From positions 62,001-126,000 of the forward strand of contig NZ_JACDXV010000003.1 of assembly GCF_015158295.1 (NCBI RefSeq): DNA of 64,000 nt. The letters run 5' to 3'. Positions 18,664-25,278 of this stretch are shown here, one piece after another. This stretch comes from Devosia faecipullorum. GTDB lineage: Bacteria > Pseudomonadota > Alphaproteobacteria > Rhizobiales > Devosiaceae. The notes beneath the pieces were generated by a model that ran no database searches, was not told the origin of the DNA, and saw only the letters and a list, made by a program, of their open reading frames with translations. The translations under genes and the position numbers were made by a program. Each line of letters starts with the position of its first letter. The stretch's first letter is position 1.

Positions 18664-20169
18664 TCAATCGTCCTCGACGAAGACCTCGGCGCGCTTGCGG
18701 CGGATCGAGGGCAATACCGCGATGAGCACCGCCAGCAGCGCCAGTCCCAGCAGCGTCGCCGAAATCGGCCGGGTGACAAAGATCATCGGATCGCCGCGCG
18801 AAATGATCATGGCGCGGCGCAGATGTTCCTCGAGCAGCGGCCCCAGGACGAAGCCGAGCAGGAGCGGCGCCGGCTCGCAGCCGAAACGGATCAGCAGATA
18901 GCCGACCGCCGCGAAGAAGGCGATGGCATAGACGTCATAGATATTCTGGTTGATCGAATAGGTGCCGATACAGGCGAACAGTACGATGGCCGGGAACAGC
19001 ACCCGATAGGGAATGGAGAGCATCTTCACCCAGAGCCCGATCAGGGGCAGGTTGAGGATGATCAGCAAGAGATTGCCGATCCACATCGAGGCGATGATGC
19101 CCCAGAACAAGGCCGGCTGTTCGTTGATGACATTGGGGCCGGGGGTAATGCCCTGGAGGATGAAGGCCCCCACCATCAGCGCCATCACCGGATGGGCGGG
19201 AATGCCCAGGGTCATGAGCGGAATGAACGAGGTCTGCGCCGCCGCATTATTCGCCGATTCCGGCCCCGCCACGCCCTCGATGGCGCCCTTGCCGAATTCG
19301 TCCGGATGCTTGCTCAGCCGCTTTTCGGCTGAATAGGAGGCGAAGGAGGACAGGATATGGCCCCCGCCCGGCAGGACGCCGAGCAGCGAGCCGAGCCCGG
19401 TGCCGCGCAGGATCGGGGCCCAGATGCGCTTCCAGTCGGCGCGGGTCAGCCAGAGGTTCTCCACCTTCTTGACGCCCACTTCGCGCTCGGTCTCGTTTTC
19501 GAGATTGCGCAGGATTTCGGCGATGCCGAAGACGCCCACCGCCACGGCGACGAAATTGAGCCCGCCGAACAATTCGCGCAGCCCGAAGGTGAAGCGCGGG
19601 GTGCCGGTATAGATGTCCTGCCCCACCATGCCGAGCAGGAGCCCCAGAACGATCATCGCCAGGGCCTTGAGGATGGAGCCATGCGCCAGAGCAATCGAGA
19701 CCAGCAGGCCGAGCACGATCAGCGAGAAATATTCCGGCGCCCCGAAATTGAGCGCCGCTCGCGCCAGGGGCGGGGCGAAGAAGGCCAGGATCAGCGTCGC
19801 CACCGACCCGGCGAAGAACGAACCGATGGCGGCAGTGGCCAGCGCCTGTCCGGCGCGGCCCTGGCGGGCCATCTGATAGCCGTCAATGGCCGTCACCGCC
19901 GAGGAGCTTTCCCCCGGCAGGTTGATGAGGATGGCGGTGGTGGAGCCGCCATATTGGGCGCCGTAATAGATGCCGGCCAGCATGATCAGCGCCGTTGCCG
20001 GGCCGAGGGTGAAGGTGATGGGCAGGAGCATGGCGATGGTGGCGGTCGGGCCGATGCCCGGCAGCACCCCCACCAGCGTGCCCAGAAGGACGCCGATGAA
20101 GCAATAAAGGATATTGGTGGGGTCGAGCGCCACCGAAAAGCCCAGCGCCAGCGAGGAGATCAGGTCCAT
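18664..20169 (-). CDS. tctA: Tripartite tricarboxylate transporter, large membrane subunit TctA
   Basis: 501 residues with about eleven or twelve membrane segments. Family signatures are [56 protein letters not shown] and [18 protein letters not shown]. It is the main translocation subunit for citrate-like carboxylates, working with TctB and the periplasmic TctC. It lies 9 bp after tctB in a tctC-tctB-tctA operon. The exact substrate is not determined. Confidence 0.95.
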
Positions 20170-20178
20170 GATGTTCTC

Positions 20179-20640
20179 CTAGAATTTGAGCCAGGGGCCG
20201 AATAGCGGCACCAGCATGCCCAGCCCGACCACGAAGACGAGATAACAGAGCATGGTGAGGCCCAGGGCGATGACCAAAGCCGAGAGCATGGTGTTGCGGC
20301 TGCTCGAGGCGGCGGTGACGAAAGCGGTGATGGCCACGACCGGGATGAAGCCCAGCCCGCGAATGGTGGCGGCGAAAAACACGATAATGCCCAGCACCAG
20401 CGCGATGCCGCGCAGCGGCCAGGCATGCGGGGCCTCCTCGTCAGGCCGGCCGATGCCCTTGGCGGCGACGGCAATGCCCAGGGCCACCAGGATCCCTCCC
20501 AGCACGATCGGCATGAAGCCGGGCCCCATGCGGAACGGCGTGCCGAATTCATATTTCATCGCTTCGAGCGCGAAGAACGAGCCGAAGGCGACAAACATCG
20601 CCCCCGCCGCGAGGTCATTGCGCGACGCATTGAGAGCCAT
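20179..20640 (-). CDS. tctB: Tripartite tricarboxylate transporter, small membrane subunit TctB
   Basis: 153-residue protein with four predicted membrane segments. It shows TctB features such as FGTPFRMGPGFMPIVLGGILVALGIAVA. Small TctB proteins are poorly conserved, but the position between tctC and tctA settles the call. Confidence 0.9.
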   Translation of the reverse strand: MALNASRNDLAAGAMFVAFGSFFALEAMKYEFGTPFRMGPGFMPIVLGGILVALGIAVAAKGIGRPDEEAPHAWPLRGIALVLGIIVFFAATIRGLGFIPVVAITAFVTAASSSRNTMLSALVIALGLTMLCYLVFVVGLGMLVPLFGPWLKF

Positions 20641-20680
20641 TTTCTACCCCTGATTTTGCAAATCACCGATGCTGAAGCGA

Positions 20681-20799
20681 GCGCCCCCCTTTGAAGGGAG
20701 GGCGGGGATGGGGGTTCTGCGACATCAAAAAGCTTATCGCTCAGAGATGGTTCTGAACCCCCACCCGCAATCCCTCCCCTCAAGGGGGGAGGGAGGCGC
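20681..20799. repeat. Imperfect inverted repeat between tctC and tctB
   Basis: Arms at about 20681-20717 and 20755-20799 are imperfectly complementary. Both share GCGCC...CCC, TTGA(A/G)GGGAGGG and a terminal GGGGGTTC. The unit is a GC-rich, hairpin-forming element inside the operon. It looks like a dispersed intergenic repeat or small MITE and could attenuate expression between tctC and tctB. Confidence 0.55.
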
Positions 20800-20833
20800 A
20801 TCCAGTATATGGCGACGTCTTGCGAGCCCCGAC

Positions 20834-21817
20834 TTACTGCGCCGAAACGCCGGCTGCCGAGATCACTTCTTTCCAGAGCGCGATCTGGCCTTCGAGCATG
20901 GCGCTCAAAGCCGCAGGAGTGGCCTGATCGGCCGGCACCGGATAGGTGCCCAGTTCGGCAAAGGAGGTGCCGACCTTTTCATTGGCCAGCGCCACCTGCA
21001 AAGCCGCAGTCAGGCGTTCGACAATGGCCGGATCGGTGCCGGCGGGCGCATAAAGGCCATGCCAGATCGAAAGGTTGAAATTGTCGATGCCGCCTTCGTC
21101 CAGCGTCGGCAGGTCGGGCAGGACGGCGATGCGCTCGGGCGTCGTCACCGCATAGGCCTTGATCTCGCCGGCATGGATCTGGCTGGTCGTATTGGTGGTC
21201 TGGTCACACATCATGTCGATCTGGCCGCCGAGCAGGTCGGTCATGGCCGGACCAGTCCCCTGATAGGGCACTTCGGTCATCTTGGTGTCCAGCGCATCCA
21301 TGATCAGCAGGCCGCAGAGCTGGCTGGCAGCGCCGATCCCGGCATTGGCATAGGTGATGTTCTCGCCGTTCTCCTTGATATAGGCGATGAGGTCTTCAAG
21401 ATTGGTCGGCTCGAAATCGCGGCGCGCCACCACGGTCATCGGCACTTCGGTGACAAGGCCGATCGTGGCGAAATCGGTCAGCGGGTCATAGGGCAGGCTG
21501 GCATAGAGCGCAGGAGCGGTGGACATGCCGATATGGTGCAGCAGCAAGGTATAGCCATCGGGAGCGGCTGCAGCCACCTGCCCCGCGCCCAGCGTGCCGC
21601 CGGCGCCGCCGACATTCTGCACCACGACCTGCTGGCCCAGCTCGTCGCTCATCGCCGCCGCGACCAGACGGGTGACCGTGTCGGTCGGGCCGCCGGCGGA
21701 GAAGGGCACGACGATGGTGACCGGCTGGCTCGGATAATCCTGCGCGCTGACACCGATGGCGCCCAGCGCCGTGGCCGCGACCAGGGCGGCGGACAAAGTG
21801 CGGATAACAGTCTTCAT
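20834..21817 (-). CDS. tctC: Tripartite tricarboxylate transporter substrate-binding protein TctC
   Basis: 327 residues, with signal peptide MKTVIRTLSAALVAATALGAIGVSAQ. The mature start, YPSQPVTIVVPFSAGGPTDT, is the canonical Bug/TctC sequence, and GAGQVAAAAPDGYTLLLH follows. It binds a carboxylate in the periplasm and delivers it to TctAB. GGGAGGAG lies about 9 bp upstream of the ATG. It is the first gene of the operon, with a sigma-54 promoter about 60 bp upstream. Confidence 0.95.
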   Translation of the reverse strand: MKTVIRTLSAALVAATALGAIGVSAQDYPSQPVTIVVPFSAGGPTDTVTRLVAAAMSDELGQQVVVQNVGGAGGTLGAGQVAAAAPDGYTLLLHHIGMSTAPALYASLPYDPLTDFATIGLVTEVPMTVVARRDFEPTNLEDLIAYIKENGENITYANAGIGAASQLCGLLIMDALDTKMTEVPYQGTGPAMTDLLGGQIDMMCDQTTNTTSQIHAGEIKAYAVTTPERIAVLPDLPTLDEGGIDNFNLSIWHGLYAPAGTDPAIVERLTAALQVALANEKVGTSFAELGTYPVPADQATPAALSAMLEGQIALWKEVISAAGVSAQ

Positions 21818-21876
21818 GATTTGGAACTCCTCCCGAAGTGGACCCCGGTTTCCTCCCTGGGGCTGCCCAATAGGAT

Positions 21877-21892
21877 TGCAAAGGCCGTGCCA
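21877..21892 (-). promoter_or_regulatory. Sigma-54 (-24/-12) promoter of tctCBA
   Basis: On the minus strand the sequence reads TGGCAC-GGCCT-TTGCA, matching the RpoN consensus TGGCACG-N4-TTGC exactly, with correct GG-to-GC spacing. It points at tctC with a predicted leader of about 50 nt. The adjacent NtrC-family regulator gene supplies the activator such a promoter requires. Confidence 0.85.
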
Positions 21893-21945
21893 AGATTAAA
21901 ATGCAAGGCAGATATGCATTTTTGATGGAGCATGTTAGGATTTCT

Positions 21946-21995
21946 GGCAAGAACTTGCCGGCATTTCGCCCAAAGCCCGGCAAATTCTTGCCGGG
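21946..21995. promoter_or_regulatory. Tandem upstream activator sites GGCAA-N4-TTGCC
   Basis: Two palindromes: GGCAA-GAAC-TTGCC (core 21946-21959) and CCCGGCAA-ATTC-TTGCCGGG (21976-21995). Their centres are 33 bp apart (about three helical turns), 87 and 120 bp upstream of the predicted tctC start site. This is the classical layout for an NtrC-type enhancer. The likely ligand is the response regulator encoded at 23932-25278. Confidence 0.7.
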
Positions 21996-22008
21996 AGGAC
22001 AGGATCGC

Positions 22009-23916
22009 TTGGGCAATGCATTGCGCAATCTGGTGGATCGCCGCCATTTCATCGGCGCCGGACTGGGGCTGATCCTGGTGGCGCTGGTCGGCTGGGTCAG
22101 CTTCGAAATGGCGCTGACCGGCGCCATTCGCCATGCCGAGGAGCAGGCGCAGCGGCGGCTGGTTCTGTTCGAGCGCACGCTCGAAGCCATTATCGAGCGC
22201 TTCCATTATCTGCCGGTCGCCATTTCGCAGGCGCGCGAAGTGCGCAATGCGCTGGACCACCCGGACGATGCCAATGCCGTGGAGGCGGCCAATGGGTTTT
22301 TGAGCAAGCTCAATGAAACGGCGGGGGCCGGCGAGATCTTTCTCATGGACGAGAATGGCAGCGTGGTCGCCGCCTCGAACTGGTGGACGCTCACCTCGCT
22401 CGTGGGCACCGATTATTCCTTCCGCCCCTATTTTGCCGATGCGATGGAGCGCGGCAAATCGCAATATTACGCCTTTGGCATCTCCACCAGCGTGCCCGGC
22501 TATTTCCTCTCCCAGCGGGTGGATGGGCCGAGCGAACCCATCGGCGTGGCGGTGACGAAAATCCATCTCGGCGAGCTGGAAGCCATCTGGTGGCGCTCGG
22601 GCGAATTGATCGGCATTGCCGATGTCAATGACGTGGTCATTCTCTCGACCCGGCCCGACTGGCGCTACCGGCCGCTGCAAACCATTGCCCCGTCCCGGGC
22701 GGAGGAGATTTCCAGCCAGCAATTTTATGGCGGCAATGGCATCACCAATAAAGGCATCGTCGCCGATCGCTGGCAATCGCGCGGCGCCGAATTCGCCTTT
22801 ATCGCGGGCAGCGACAAGGAGGGCTCGGGCTATTTCGTGCTCGAAGAACTGCGCCTGCCCAAATTGGGCTGGCGGCTGGTCTCCTTCATTCCACTGGCCC
22901 CGCTTCAGGGGGGAGCGATGATCCTGGCCAGTGCGGCGGCCCTCGGCTGCGCGGCGCTGCTGCTGATCGTCATATTGGTGGTGCAGAGGCGGCGCCTGGC
23001 GGCGCAAAGGCTGGGCGAGCATAGCCGGCTCGAACAGCGCGTGGCCGAGCGGACCGAAGACCTGCATGCCATGAACGAGCAATTGCGCGCCGAGATCGCC
23101 GAGCGGGTCCGCGCCGAAAAGGCGGAGCGCGAGGCCCAGGCGGGCCTCGTACAGGCGGCCAAGCTCGCCAGTCTCGGACAGGCGCTGGCCGGGGTGGCGC
23201 ATGAAATCAGCCAGCCGGTGGCCGCGCTCTCCACCCATCTGGCCAGCGCCCGCCTCCTCGACCGGCGCCAGGGCGGCTCGGAGCTTTCCCCGGTCATTGG
23301 CGCCATGGACAAGGTGGTGGACCGGCTCGCCAATCTCACCGGCCACCTCAAGACCTTTTCCCGCAAGGAAAGCCGGACGAGCCTTGTTGCCGATTGCGGC
23401 ACGGCCATCGCCAATGCGCTGGATCTGGTGGATCACCGGCTGCGCCAGGCCGGCGTGGATGTGGATTATCGCCGGCCCCATCCTCCGGTCAGCGCCGGTT
23501 TCAATCCGGTGCATCTCGAACAGGTGCTGATCAACCTTTTCGCCAATGCCGCCGACGCCATGGTTGGCCGCCCATTGCGCCTCCTATCCATCGCCGTCAC
23601 CGCCGAGAACGGCGTCGTGCGCCTCGTCGTCGCCGATACCGGCCAGGGCATGACCCCGGAGGACATGAGCAATCTCTTTGACCCCTTCTTCACCACCAAG
23701 CCCGCCGGAGAGGGGCTGGGGCTGGGCCTGGCCATTTCCAACGGCCTTGTCCGGGACAGCGGCGGCACGCTCTCGGCCCGGTCCGAGCCGGGCAAGGGGA
23801 CGACGTTCACGATATTGCTGCCGCAAGCGAGCGCGGAGCGCGCCGTCCCAATGCCGTCCTCCCGCTTGCCGGAAGGGGATGAAAAAATGGCATCACCGCG
23901 CCGAGCGAAACGATAA
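22009..23916 (+). CDS. Sensor histidine kinase, DctB-like
   Basis: About 635 residues. Membrane segment near residues 12-32, a periplasmic double-Cache-type sensor domain of about 270 residues, a second membrane segment (GGAMILASAAALGCAALLLI), a coiled coil, then the kinase core. H-box GVAHEISQPVAAL, N-box LINLFANAADAM, G1 VADTGQGM and G2 GEGLGLGLAISNG are visible. The TTG at 22009 has GGGAGGA 9 bp upstream and leaves the activator palindromes outside the gene; ATGs at 21901 and 21925 would place them inside coding sequence. It precedes its response regulator by 15 bp. Confidence 0.9.
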   Translation: MGNALRNLVDRRHFIGAGLGLILVALVGWVSFEMALTGAIRHAEEQAQRRLVLFERTLEAIIERFHYLPVAISQAREVRNALDHPDDANAVEAANGFLSKLNETAGAGEIFLMDENGSVVAASNWWTLTSLVGTDYSFRPYFADAMERGKSQYYAFGISTSVPGYFLSQRVDGPSEPIGVAVTKIHLGELEAIWWRSGELIGIADVNDVVILSTRPDWRYRPLQTIAPSRAEEISSQQFYGGNGITNKGIVADRWQSRGAEFAFIAGSDKEGSGYFVLEELRLPKLGWRLVSFIPLAPLQGGAMILASAAALGCAALLLIVILVVQRRRLAAQRLGEHSRLEQRVAERTEDLHAMNEQLRAEIAERVRAEKAEREAQAGLVQAAKLASLGQALAGVAHEISQPVAALSTHLASARLLDRRQGGSELSPVIGAMDKVVDRLANLTGHLKTFSRKESRTSLVADCGTAIANALDLVDHRLRQAGVDVDYRRPHPPVSAGFNPVHLEQVLINLFANAADAMVGRPLRLLSIAVTAENGVVRLVVADTGQGMTPEDMSNLFDPFFTTKPAGEGLGLGLAISNGLVRDSGGTLSARSEPGKGTTFTILLPQASAERAVPMPSSRLPEGDEKMASPRRAKR

Positions 23917-23931: not shown

Positions 23932-25278
23932 ATGACCGAGCCCAAAATCCTTATCGTCGATGACGAAGACATGATGCGCACCGCTCTCGAGCAATGGCTG
24001 CGCCTGTCCGGCTTCGAGGTCAGAACCGCGGGCAATGCCCCCGAGGCGCTGCGCCTCGCCGATGACTGGCATCCCCATGTCATTCTCACCGATGTGCGCA
24101 TGCCCGGCCTTGGCGGGCTCGATCTTCTGCGCTCGATTCAGGAAAGCGGCCTGCCCATCGAGATCATTCTCATTACCGGCCATGGCGACGTGCCCATGGC
24201 GGTCGAGGCCATGCGCGCCGGCGCCTTCGATTTTCTGCAAAAGCCCTATGTGCCCGAGCAATTGGTCAATTCGTTGACCCGCGCCGCCGAGCGGGCAAGG
24301 CTCAAGCGCGAGATCGCCGATCTGCGCCGCCGGCTCGATGGCGGCGACAATGAACTGGCCAATCGGCTGATCGGGGTCGCGCCTTGCATGCAGGCGCTCA
24401 GGCGCTCCATTCTCGAGCTGGCGCCCATTCCCGCCGACATCATCCTTCTGGGCGAGACCGGCACCGGCAAGGAAGTGGTGGCGCGGTGCCTGCACGATTT
24501 CTCGCCTCGCGCCGAAAAACCCTTCGTCGCGGTCAATTGCGCCGCCATTCCCGCCGAGCTGATCGAGAGCGAATTGTTCGGCCATGAAGCCGGCGCCTTT
24601 ACCGGGGCGGGCGGGCAGCGGATCGGCAAGTTCGAATATGCCAATGGCGGCACGATGCTGCTCGACGAGATCGAATCCATGCCCCTGCTGGCCCAGGCCA
24701 AGGTGCTGCGGGTCATTCAGGAGCGGGTCGTGGAACGCCTGGGCTCGAACCGGCAGATCGCCCTCGACCTGCGGATCGTCGCCACTTCGAAAGTCGATCT
24801 GGAGCTGGAGAGCGCCGCCGGACGCTTCCGCGCCGACCTCTTCTACCGGCTCAACATGGCGACGCTGCACCTGCCGCCCCTGCGCGAGCGCGGCGATGAC
24901 AGCGTCCTGCTGTTCCATCATTTCCTGGCGCTGGCCGCCCGGCGCTTCGGGCGCGAGCCGCCCGAATTGCATCCCGCTGACATCGACGCCATCCTCACCC
25001 ATGCCTGGCCGGGCAATGTGCGCGAATTGCGCGCCGCCGCCGACCGCTTCGCCCTGGGCCTCAATGGCAATGGCCGGGCACTGGGCCACATGCTGGGCAA
25101 TCGCGCCCCCGACCTCGGGGGCGGCGCATTGGCCGAAAGGGTCGCCAATTATGAGCGGCACATCATCGAGACCGAATTGCGCCGCCACGATCATTCCGTC
25201 GCCGCCGTGGCCGAAGCGCTGCACGTGCCGCGTCGGACGCTGAGCGAAAAAATGGCGCGGCTGGGCGTCAGCCGCTAG
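23932..25278 (+). CDS. Sigma-54-dependent response regulator, DctD/NtrC family
   Basis: 448 residues in three domains. The receiver (1-120) has acidic pair D10-D11, phospho-acceptor D54, T82 and K104. The AAA+ domain has Walker A GETGTGKE near 172, the sigma-54 contact loop GAFTGA near 222, Walker B GTMLLDEI and arginine-finger region FRADLFYRL. A C-terminal Fis-type helix-turn-helix (VAAVAEALHVPRRTLSEKMARLGV) ends the protein. It should be phosphorylated by the upstream kinase and activate the sigma-54 promoter of tctCBA through the tandem palindromes. Confidence 0.95.
   Translation: MTEPKILIVDDEDMMRTALEQWLRLSGFEVRTAGNAPEALRLADDWHPHVILTDVRMPGLGGLDLLRSIQESGLPIEIILITGHGDVPMAVEAMRAGAFDFLQKPYVPEQLVNSLTRAAERARLKREIADLRRRLDGGDNELANRLIGVAPCMQALRRSILELAPIPADIILLGETGTGKEVVARCLHDFSPRAEKPFVAVNCAAIPAELIESELFGHEAGAFTGAGGQRIGKFEYANGGTMLLDEIESMPLLAQAKVLRVIQERVVERLGSNRQIALDLRIVATSKVDLELESAAGRFRADLFYRLNMATLHLPPLRERGDDSVLLFHHFLALAARRFGREPPELHPADIDAILTHAWPGNVRELRAAADRFALGLNGNGRALGHMLGNRAPDLGGGALAERVANYERHIIETELRRHDHSVAAVAEALHVPRRTLSEKMARLGVSR

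Follow-up and report, generated by a model that had tools for sequence, protein, structure and literature searches.

Comparative analysis of a 64,000-nucleotide stretch of the Devosia faecipullorum genome (hereafter, the window) points to a DctB/DctD-type two-component pair that would drive the divergently oriented tctCBA genes through two upstream palindromes and a sigma-54 promoter. On the combined evidence of gene content, motif spacing and conservation across the genus, we assign this mechanism, taken in full, a probability of about 0.87.

Organization of the region between tctCBA and the kinase-regulator pair

The features of the locus, in window coordinates, are as follows.

18664-20169, minus strand: tctA (Pfam TctA)
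20179-20640, minus strand: tctB (Pfam TctB)
20834-21817, minus strand: tctC, BugD-like TTT receptor (Pfam TctC; best solved relative BugD, 2f5x)
21892-21877, minus strand: predicted -24/-12 sigma-54 promoter of tctCBA, TGGCACGGCCTTTGCA (36 of 39 upstream regions match exactly, the other 3 with one mismatch)
21903-21917, minus strand: third conserved element, GCATATCTGCCTTGC, 25 bp before the -24 box (TGG) in 36 of 39 upstream regions
21946-21959: proximal palindrome, GGCAA-N4-TTGCC, exact; presumed regulator site (at most one mismatch in 34 of 39)
21979-21992: distal palindrome, GGCAA-N4-TTGCC, exact; presumed regulator site (at most one mismatch in 35 of 39)
22012-22025: imperfect third palindrome (one mismatch), another 33 bp out
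22009-23916, plus strand: DctB-like sensor kinase (homology to DctB; TTG start at 22009 preferred)
23932-25278, plus strand: DctD-like response regulator (domains and key residues)

The promoter and both palindromes lie between the divergent tctCBA and kinase-regulator genes. The promoter carries the -24 GG and -12 GC at the right spacing and is conserved across the genus, and its -12 G at 21879 places the predicted tctC start near 21867, with a leader of approximately 50 nt. The palindromes are 33 bp apart from start to start, with centres at about -85 and -118 relative to the predicted tctC start, close to the 87 and 120 bp given by an earlier sequence-only reading of this DNA, which had also correctly placed a sigma-54 promoter on the minus strand upstream of tctC and a DctB-like kinase and GAFTGA-bearing regulator in the next genes. 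The imperfect palindrome at 22012-22025 was considered as a further member of the array and rejected: among the 39 upstream regions compared it is listed for the window only, and it is therefore treated as probably incidental. The genome encodes rpoN, and an exact -24/-12 match is found just 5' of the rpoN frame itself (L018, G000:C3:179289-179304), perhaps indicating autoregulation.

Although the kinase frame extends back to an ATG at 21901, we prefer the TTG at 22009, located just before the first hydrophobic stretch, because a start at the ATG would cross both palindromes and because the frame opens only further in for some relatives (e.g. L053 and L064). Residues 89-332 of the kinase align with DctB (2zbb, 1e-35); the Pfam search placed HATPase_c above its cut-off and reported dCache_1 and HisKA below theirs, and together with the DctB alignment this gives the dCache, HisKA and HATPase_c composition of a DctB-like kinase. 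The regulator has the receiver, AAA+ and Fis-type helix-turn-helix architecture of DctD: its receiver aligns with the DctD structures 1qkk and 1l5y, and the protein presents Asp54, a Walker A motif at 174, a Walker B motif, GAFTGA at 221-226 and a Fis-type helix-turn-helix with VPRRTLSEKM at 432.

TctC, TctB and TctA are encoded in one operon-like row, as expected of a TTT system. The gap between tctC and tctB (20641-20833) measures 193 bp here and ranges from approximately 56 to 300 bp in relatives, with tctB and tctA tightly spaced in most. Compared with solved structures, TctC matches BugD best (2f5x, 2.5e-105), followed by 6hke, which we take to be MatC (1.2e-75), with 4x9t the last of 11 (8.6e-32). 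In PMC5812351, 4x9t is named TctC and BugD is described as holding aspartate, and MatC is reported to bind malate at about 0.02 uM in a paper whose title speaks of a C4-dicarboxylate receptor (PMC8556258). The receptor does not fall nearest to the citrate TctC group, as the label of citrate-type transporter applied by the earlier reading would have required, and this ranking lowers the likelihood of citrate as the substrate. With a sensor nearest to DctB and a receptor nearest to BugD and MatC, a C4-dicarboxylate or aspartate is the likelier ligand.

Conservation of the regulatory region across Devosia

At least 42 of the 61 genus genomes, that of the window included, encode an orthologous regulator (37 near full length and five partial, among the matches listed), and the loci of 39 of the 41 other genomes were compared. 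In all 38 loci that reach tctC, the gene is divergent from the kinase-regulator pair; the L071 contig ends inside tctA. One locus (L079), where the contig ends, provided no upstream sequence, and the upstream comparison accordingly comprised 39 regions, including the window. The palindromes are 33 bp apart in 32 of these regions and 32 bp apart in four, and the proximal palindrome lies 67 bp from the promoter in 33. Repeated at six displaced positions, the search yielded 1, 0, 0, 0, 0 and 0 of 39. A palindrome with at most one mismatch was missing in five regions for the proximal copy and in four for the distal copy, which we counted against the best explanation. L086-L088 were scored as failures because the search range missed their palindromes; by eye, they carry GGCAA-N4-TTGCC and a two-mismatch copy (GGCGGATTTTTGCC) approximately 32 bp further out, approximately 14 bp farther from the promoter than usual. 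Mean conservation reaches 0.90 and 0.91 in the two palindromes and 0.85 in the promoter, as against 0.44 between the palindromes, 0.68 from palindrome to promoter and 0.56 in the leader. The palindromes, that is, keep their arms and their spacing while the intervening DNA drifts.

The loop threonine is kept in all 40 tct-linked Devosia regulators, and the phospho-acceptor aspartate in all 38 rows where it is readable. The exact GAFTGA loop is present in only 16 of the 40 orthologues, a point also counted against the best explanation; the remainder have GAFTSA (12), GSFTGA (seven), GAFTGS (four) or GAYTGA (one). All 12 loci with GAFTSA have an exact -24/-12 promoter. The regulator frame is in pieces in L084, L087 and L088, as is the kinase frame of L088, through either assembly error or decay.

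As judged from sequence comparison, the co-occurrence of the promoter, the palindromes and the neighbouring genes is confirmed as real and beyond chance. The search target proposed by the earlier reading, palindrome pairs near tctC homologues, is conserved at tctC within the genus with fixed spacing, which supports viewing the promoter, the paired palindromes, the DctB-like kinase and the GAFTGA-type regulator as one conserved unit with tctCBA.

A third conserved element next to the tctC promoter

The earlier description of this regulatory region held for the promoter and the palindromes and missed a third conserved element. In the window, GCATATCTGCCTTGC sits inside a perfect repeat, AAAATGCA-N9-TGCATTTT (21922-21898). 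Among the regions carrying the element, 17 are exact, ten have one mismatch, four have two and five have three to five. L086-L088 do not have it at the usual offset; a GCA-N9-TGC sequence that looks inverted is seen further out in these loci. Its motif, GCATAYCWGCNTTGC, occurs in 34 of the 61 genus genomes, once in each, with a single match for the control pattern. By coordinates, 32 of the 34 matches are at the tctC locus; these 32 include G016 and G049, where the contig is short and carries part of the regulator gene. With two of 34 genus matches off the locus against one control match, a role as a regulon motif was rejected, and since nearly all matches are at the tctC locus the element is considered local to the tctC promoter. 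At roughly -50 to -36, it is suitably placed to bind a second regulator or a DNA-bending protein, or to form part of the promoter of the kinase. Two specific assignments, as a second sigma-54 site and as a sigma-70 promoter of the kinase, were rejected on spacings that do not fit by eye, and for the latter no sigma-70-like site was found.

Distribution of the promoter and palindrome patterns

When up to one mismatch is allowed, the window contains four matches to the promoter pattern against 2.5 expected, and exact matches in the 3.4 Mb genome number five, against three for the reversed pattern. At such near-chance frequency the promoter motif proves nothing alone, and its conservation across the genus is decisive. 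Exact copies of GGCAA-N4-TTGCC are found at 13 places in the genome, versus one for the control. The genome-wide search for palindrome pairs proposed by the earlier reading returned this locus as the sole place where two exact palindromes accompany an exact promoter; weaker combinations involving two-mismatch palindrome copies are found elsewhere in the genome (e.g. L006 and L010).

In a sample of 385 genomes of the class, in which the genome of the window was the single Devosia representative, the compound pattern of both palindromes and promoter was detected only in that genome (control, 0). A collection scan with the compound pattern returned 60 stretches, 17 of them located before tctC; Devosia marina, D. 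limi and D. psychrophila are among the species represented. Five precede a single receptor cluster (in Hoeflea, Geopsychrobacter and other records), and the four of these that were run all matched Pfam NMT1_3. Many others are Sphingomonad records with a shorter gap between palindromes and promoter (L142, L113, L121, L156, L164 and similar loci are mostly Sphingomonad); the gene downstream of L142, the sole Sphingomonad stretch tested, is a flagellar rod protein by Pfam. These matches outside the genus led us to reject the palindrome-promoter pattern as exclusive to Devosia. Within the genus, Devosia ginsengisoli has a second pair of palindromes accompanied by a -24/-12 match (L144, 276-377), before an M28-type peptidase gene.

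Paralogous regulators and their palindromes

Devosia genomes also encode a paralogous pair, approximately 50% (regulator) and 36% (kinase) identical to the tct-linked one, before Pfam NMT1_3 receptors (two run), presumably those called TAXI, and equipped with its own -24/-12 site. The associated palindromes are GGCGGA..TCCGCC or GGCGAA..TTCGCC, approximately 31-33 bp apart in clear cases, and the recognition helix reads RRTLNEK, as against RRTLSEK in the tct-linked regulators (the tct-linked L082 also has N). A further group has SRK-x-LYEK in the recognition helix and is often found beside GGGTGG-type palindromes. Such joint differences in helix and palindrome are as expected if each regulator binds its adjacent palindromes, and the correspondence, drawn from few groups, is suggestive.

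The TAXI loci of Devosia and Hoeflea share with the tct locus a related regulator and kinase, a palindrome pair and a -24/-12 promoter, and differ in having an NMT1_3 receptor instead of TctC and, in Devosia, other palindromes. Related regulators with the same promoter type also precede DctP-type receptors, and two further loci combine a sigma-54-type regulator with TctC: L297, with a one-mismatch site, and L279, where TctC is only 35% identical. The circuit was initially put forward as distinct; in the sense of a lone case, the word goes too far.

Loop residue and promoter type in the wider order

A close TctC relative was found in 36 of 297 genomes of the order, and 25 of the best 30 loci lie outside the genus. 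Eight of these 25 loci have a related regulator or kinase no more than 1.5 kb upstream. Of the eight regulators, seven have GAFPGA or GSFPGA and are without a -24/-12 match at up to one mismatch. The eighth locus, L216 (the same place as L297), has a divergent kinase, a GAFTGA loop, palindromes of the GGCGGA type and a site with one mismatch. The earlier reading overlooked the regulators at similar tctC genes elsewhere in the order, most of which have GAFPGA and no -24/-12 site.

The comparison was widened to 20 + 80 loci, giving 140 rows with the Devosia set. The count covered loci with a receptor downstream, other than L108, L281 and the Devosia tct loci, and accepted -24/-12 sites that face the receptor gene with at most one mismatch and intact GG and GC. 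Where the loop has Thr or Ser, such a site is present in 28 of 31 loci (20 of them exact); where it has Pro, Ala or Leu, in none of 29, eight of which are beside tctC. Searches of the opposite strand and with the mirrored pattern each gave 0 of 60. A looser count of both sides (leaving out, as in the tree-based counts, L079, L087, L088, L108 and L281) gave 30 of 32 versus one of 29, the single exception (L252) not facing its receptor. Three threonine rows, L093, L273 and L278, lack a site; that of L278 is exact in other scoring and falls outside the gap as cut, so that it was counted as absent. Most of L239-L259, together with L091, L103, L104, L106, L107 and others, have regulators with GAFPGA, GAFAGA or GAFLGA and lack a -24/-12 site ahead of the neighbouring receptor gene.

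On a tree inferred with a quick method, the loop residue changes once, with L302 on a long branch, so that the set provides one independent contrast and not sixty. Correlated evolution of loop and promoter was consequently rejected as a claim: there is one independent pair, where a significance level of 0.05 would take at least six that differ in the second trait, and a Fisher value of 6e-14 counts relatives and is no test. TctC-linked regulators occupy at least two separate places on the regulator tree. An evenly balanced case can be made that DctBD-type control of carboxylate importers runs along two sigma routes, with Devosia and L297 using the threonine loop and a -24/-12 site and a large sister clade having lost the threonine once and adopted sigma-54-free promoters, tctCBA having joined each clade separately and half-site and recognition helix having changed together. 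Were this so, the two clades would supply natural swap pairs for the change from an enhancer-type to a conventional activator. Replacing the loop threonine by proline is reported to inactivate Bradyrhizobium NifA, with GSFTGA among the variants taken as active (PMC4641369), and regulators without GAFTGA are described as acting at sigma-70 promoters (PMC10274813); a switch of this kind is hence not new.

Proposed mechanism and alternative readings

In the mechanism that we favour, a C4-dicarboxylate-like acid, or aspartate, would be sensed in the periplasm by the dCache domain of the DctB-family kinase, which would phosphorylate its DctD-family partner. The regulator would then bind both GGCAA-N4-TTGCC palindromes, which are separated by three helical turns, oligomerise and, through its GAFTGA loop, activate sigma-54 RNA polymerase at the -24/-12 promoter, switching on tctCBA, a BugD-type importer probably for the same class of acid. 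The sequence-only reading had termed the locus a complete circuit. The genes with their domains and key residues, the sites with their spacing and conservation, and rpoN were all found; the term is too strong for phosphotransfer, DNA binding, sigma-54 dependence, the ligand and the match of regulator to palindrome, which we infer.

Position alone does not reveal which protein binds the palindromes, and the sites could be real and yet serve another NtrC-family activator, with the neighbouring pair controlling something else; seven Sigma54_activat matches above 150 bits are present in the genome, this regulator included, and any of the other six could in principle use them. We consider this improbable, given that genes and sites occur together in 38 of 38 testable loci, that no other place in the genome combines an exact promoter with two exact palindromes and that recognition helix and palindrome differ together in the paralogues. 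Somewhat less probable again is that the palindromes mainly autoregulate the kinase-regulator operon, leaving tctC to sigma-54 with another activator or with the protein that binds the third element. The palindromes are indeed flanked by divergent genes, 16 bp separate the distal copy from the presumed start of the kinase, and the third element adjoins the tctC promoter; however, the fixed 67 bp between the proximal palindrome and that promoter in most regions fits an activator of tctC. Autoregulation of the pair may also coexist with tctC activation. Chance resemblance, with an ordinary sigma-70 promoter at tctC, would agree with a promoter motif that is about as frequent genome-wide as its control, but is made negligible by retention of the promoter in 39 of 39 regions with fixed spacing, against 0-1 of 39 in the displaced controls, and to a small degree by the finding of no sigma-70-like site in 21800-22020, weak evidence with 0.2 expected.

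Relation to known systems

Two-component control of TTT operons is itself familiar, TctD being an OmpR-type regulator. Like the Devosia pair, TctD, BctDE and CitAB control a TTT operon, with regulator genes adjacent in the first two; unlike it, they are tied to citrate, and the same source describes two-component systems beside tctCBA as not uncommon (PMC5812351). The words sigma and DctB are absent from the text of that article.

Sinorhizobium DctB/DctD resembles the Devosia pair in its homologous sensor and receiver, sigma-54-type regulator and paired upstream sites, and differs in its target, which is DctA, for C4-dicarboxylates, and not a TTT (PMC4077058, PMC7962211). Pseudomonas AauS/AauR is likewise a DctBD-type pair; AauR is reported to bind the 5-N4-5 palindrome TTCGG-N4-CCGAA, and two such motifs lie before a -12/-24 promoter (PMC7962211). 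Its half-site differs and its target, aatJQMP, encodes an ABC-type importer of acidic amino acids. In Pseudomonas MifS/MifR, another DctBD-type pair drives with RpoN a carboxylate transporter gene, PA5530, which, unlike tctCBA, encodes a single-protein alpha-ketoglutarate transporter (PMC4482717). Taken together, these articles report DctBD-type systems with RpoN for DctA, DctPQM, PA5530 and aatJQMP (PMC4482717, PMC7962211). A word search of the main text of two sigma-54 surveys returned no TctC (PMC3162934, PMC12316311), and within the portions of the open-access PMC literature covered we recognised no report of a TTT under DctBD and sigma-54.

The locus is a real, conserved and well-formed regulatory unit. 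It appears to apply a familiar type of circuit to a class of transporters not reported under such control in the literature covered, and a sister clade has apparently given up sigma-54. Its novelty resides in the pairing with a TTT, the same regulator module also serving TRAP-type receptors. The proposed mechanism would place a TTT under a DctBD-type pair and sigma-54, with the exact bases and spacings specified, and would re-point the transporter from citrate to C4-dicarboxylates or aspartate. The threonine-loop regulators with their -24/-12 sites and their proline-loop sisters would, in turn, make the change from sigma-54-dependent to sigma-54-independent control addressable with closely comparable parts.
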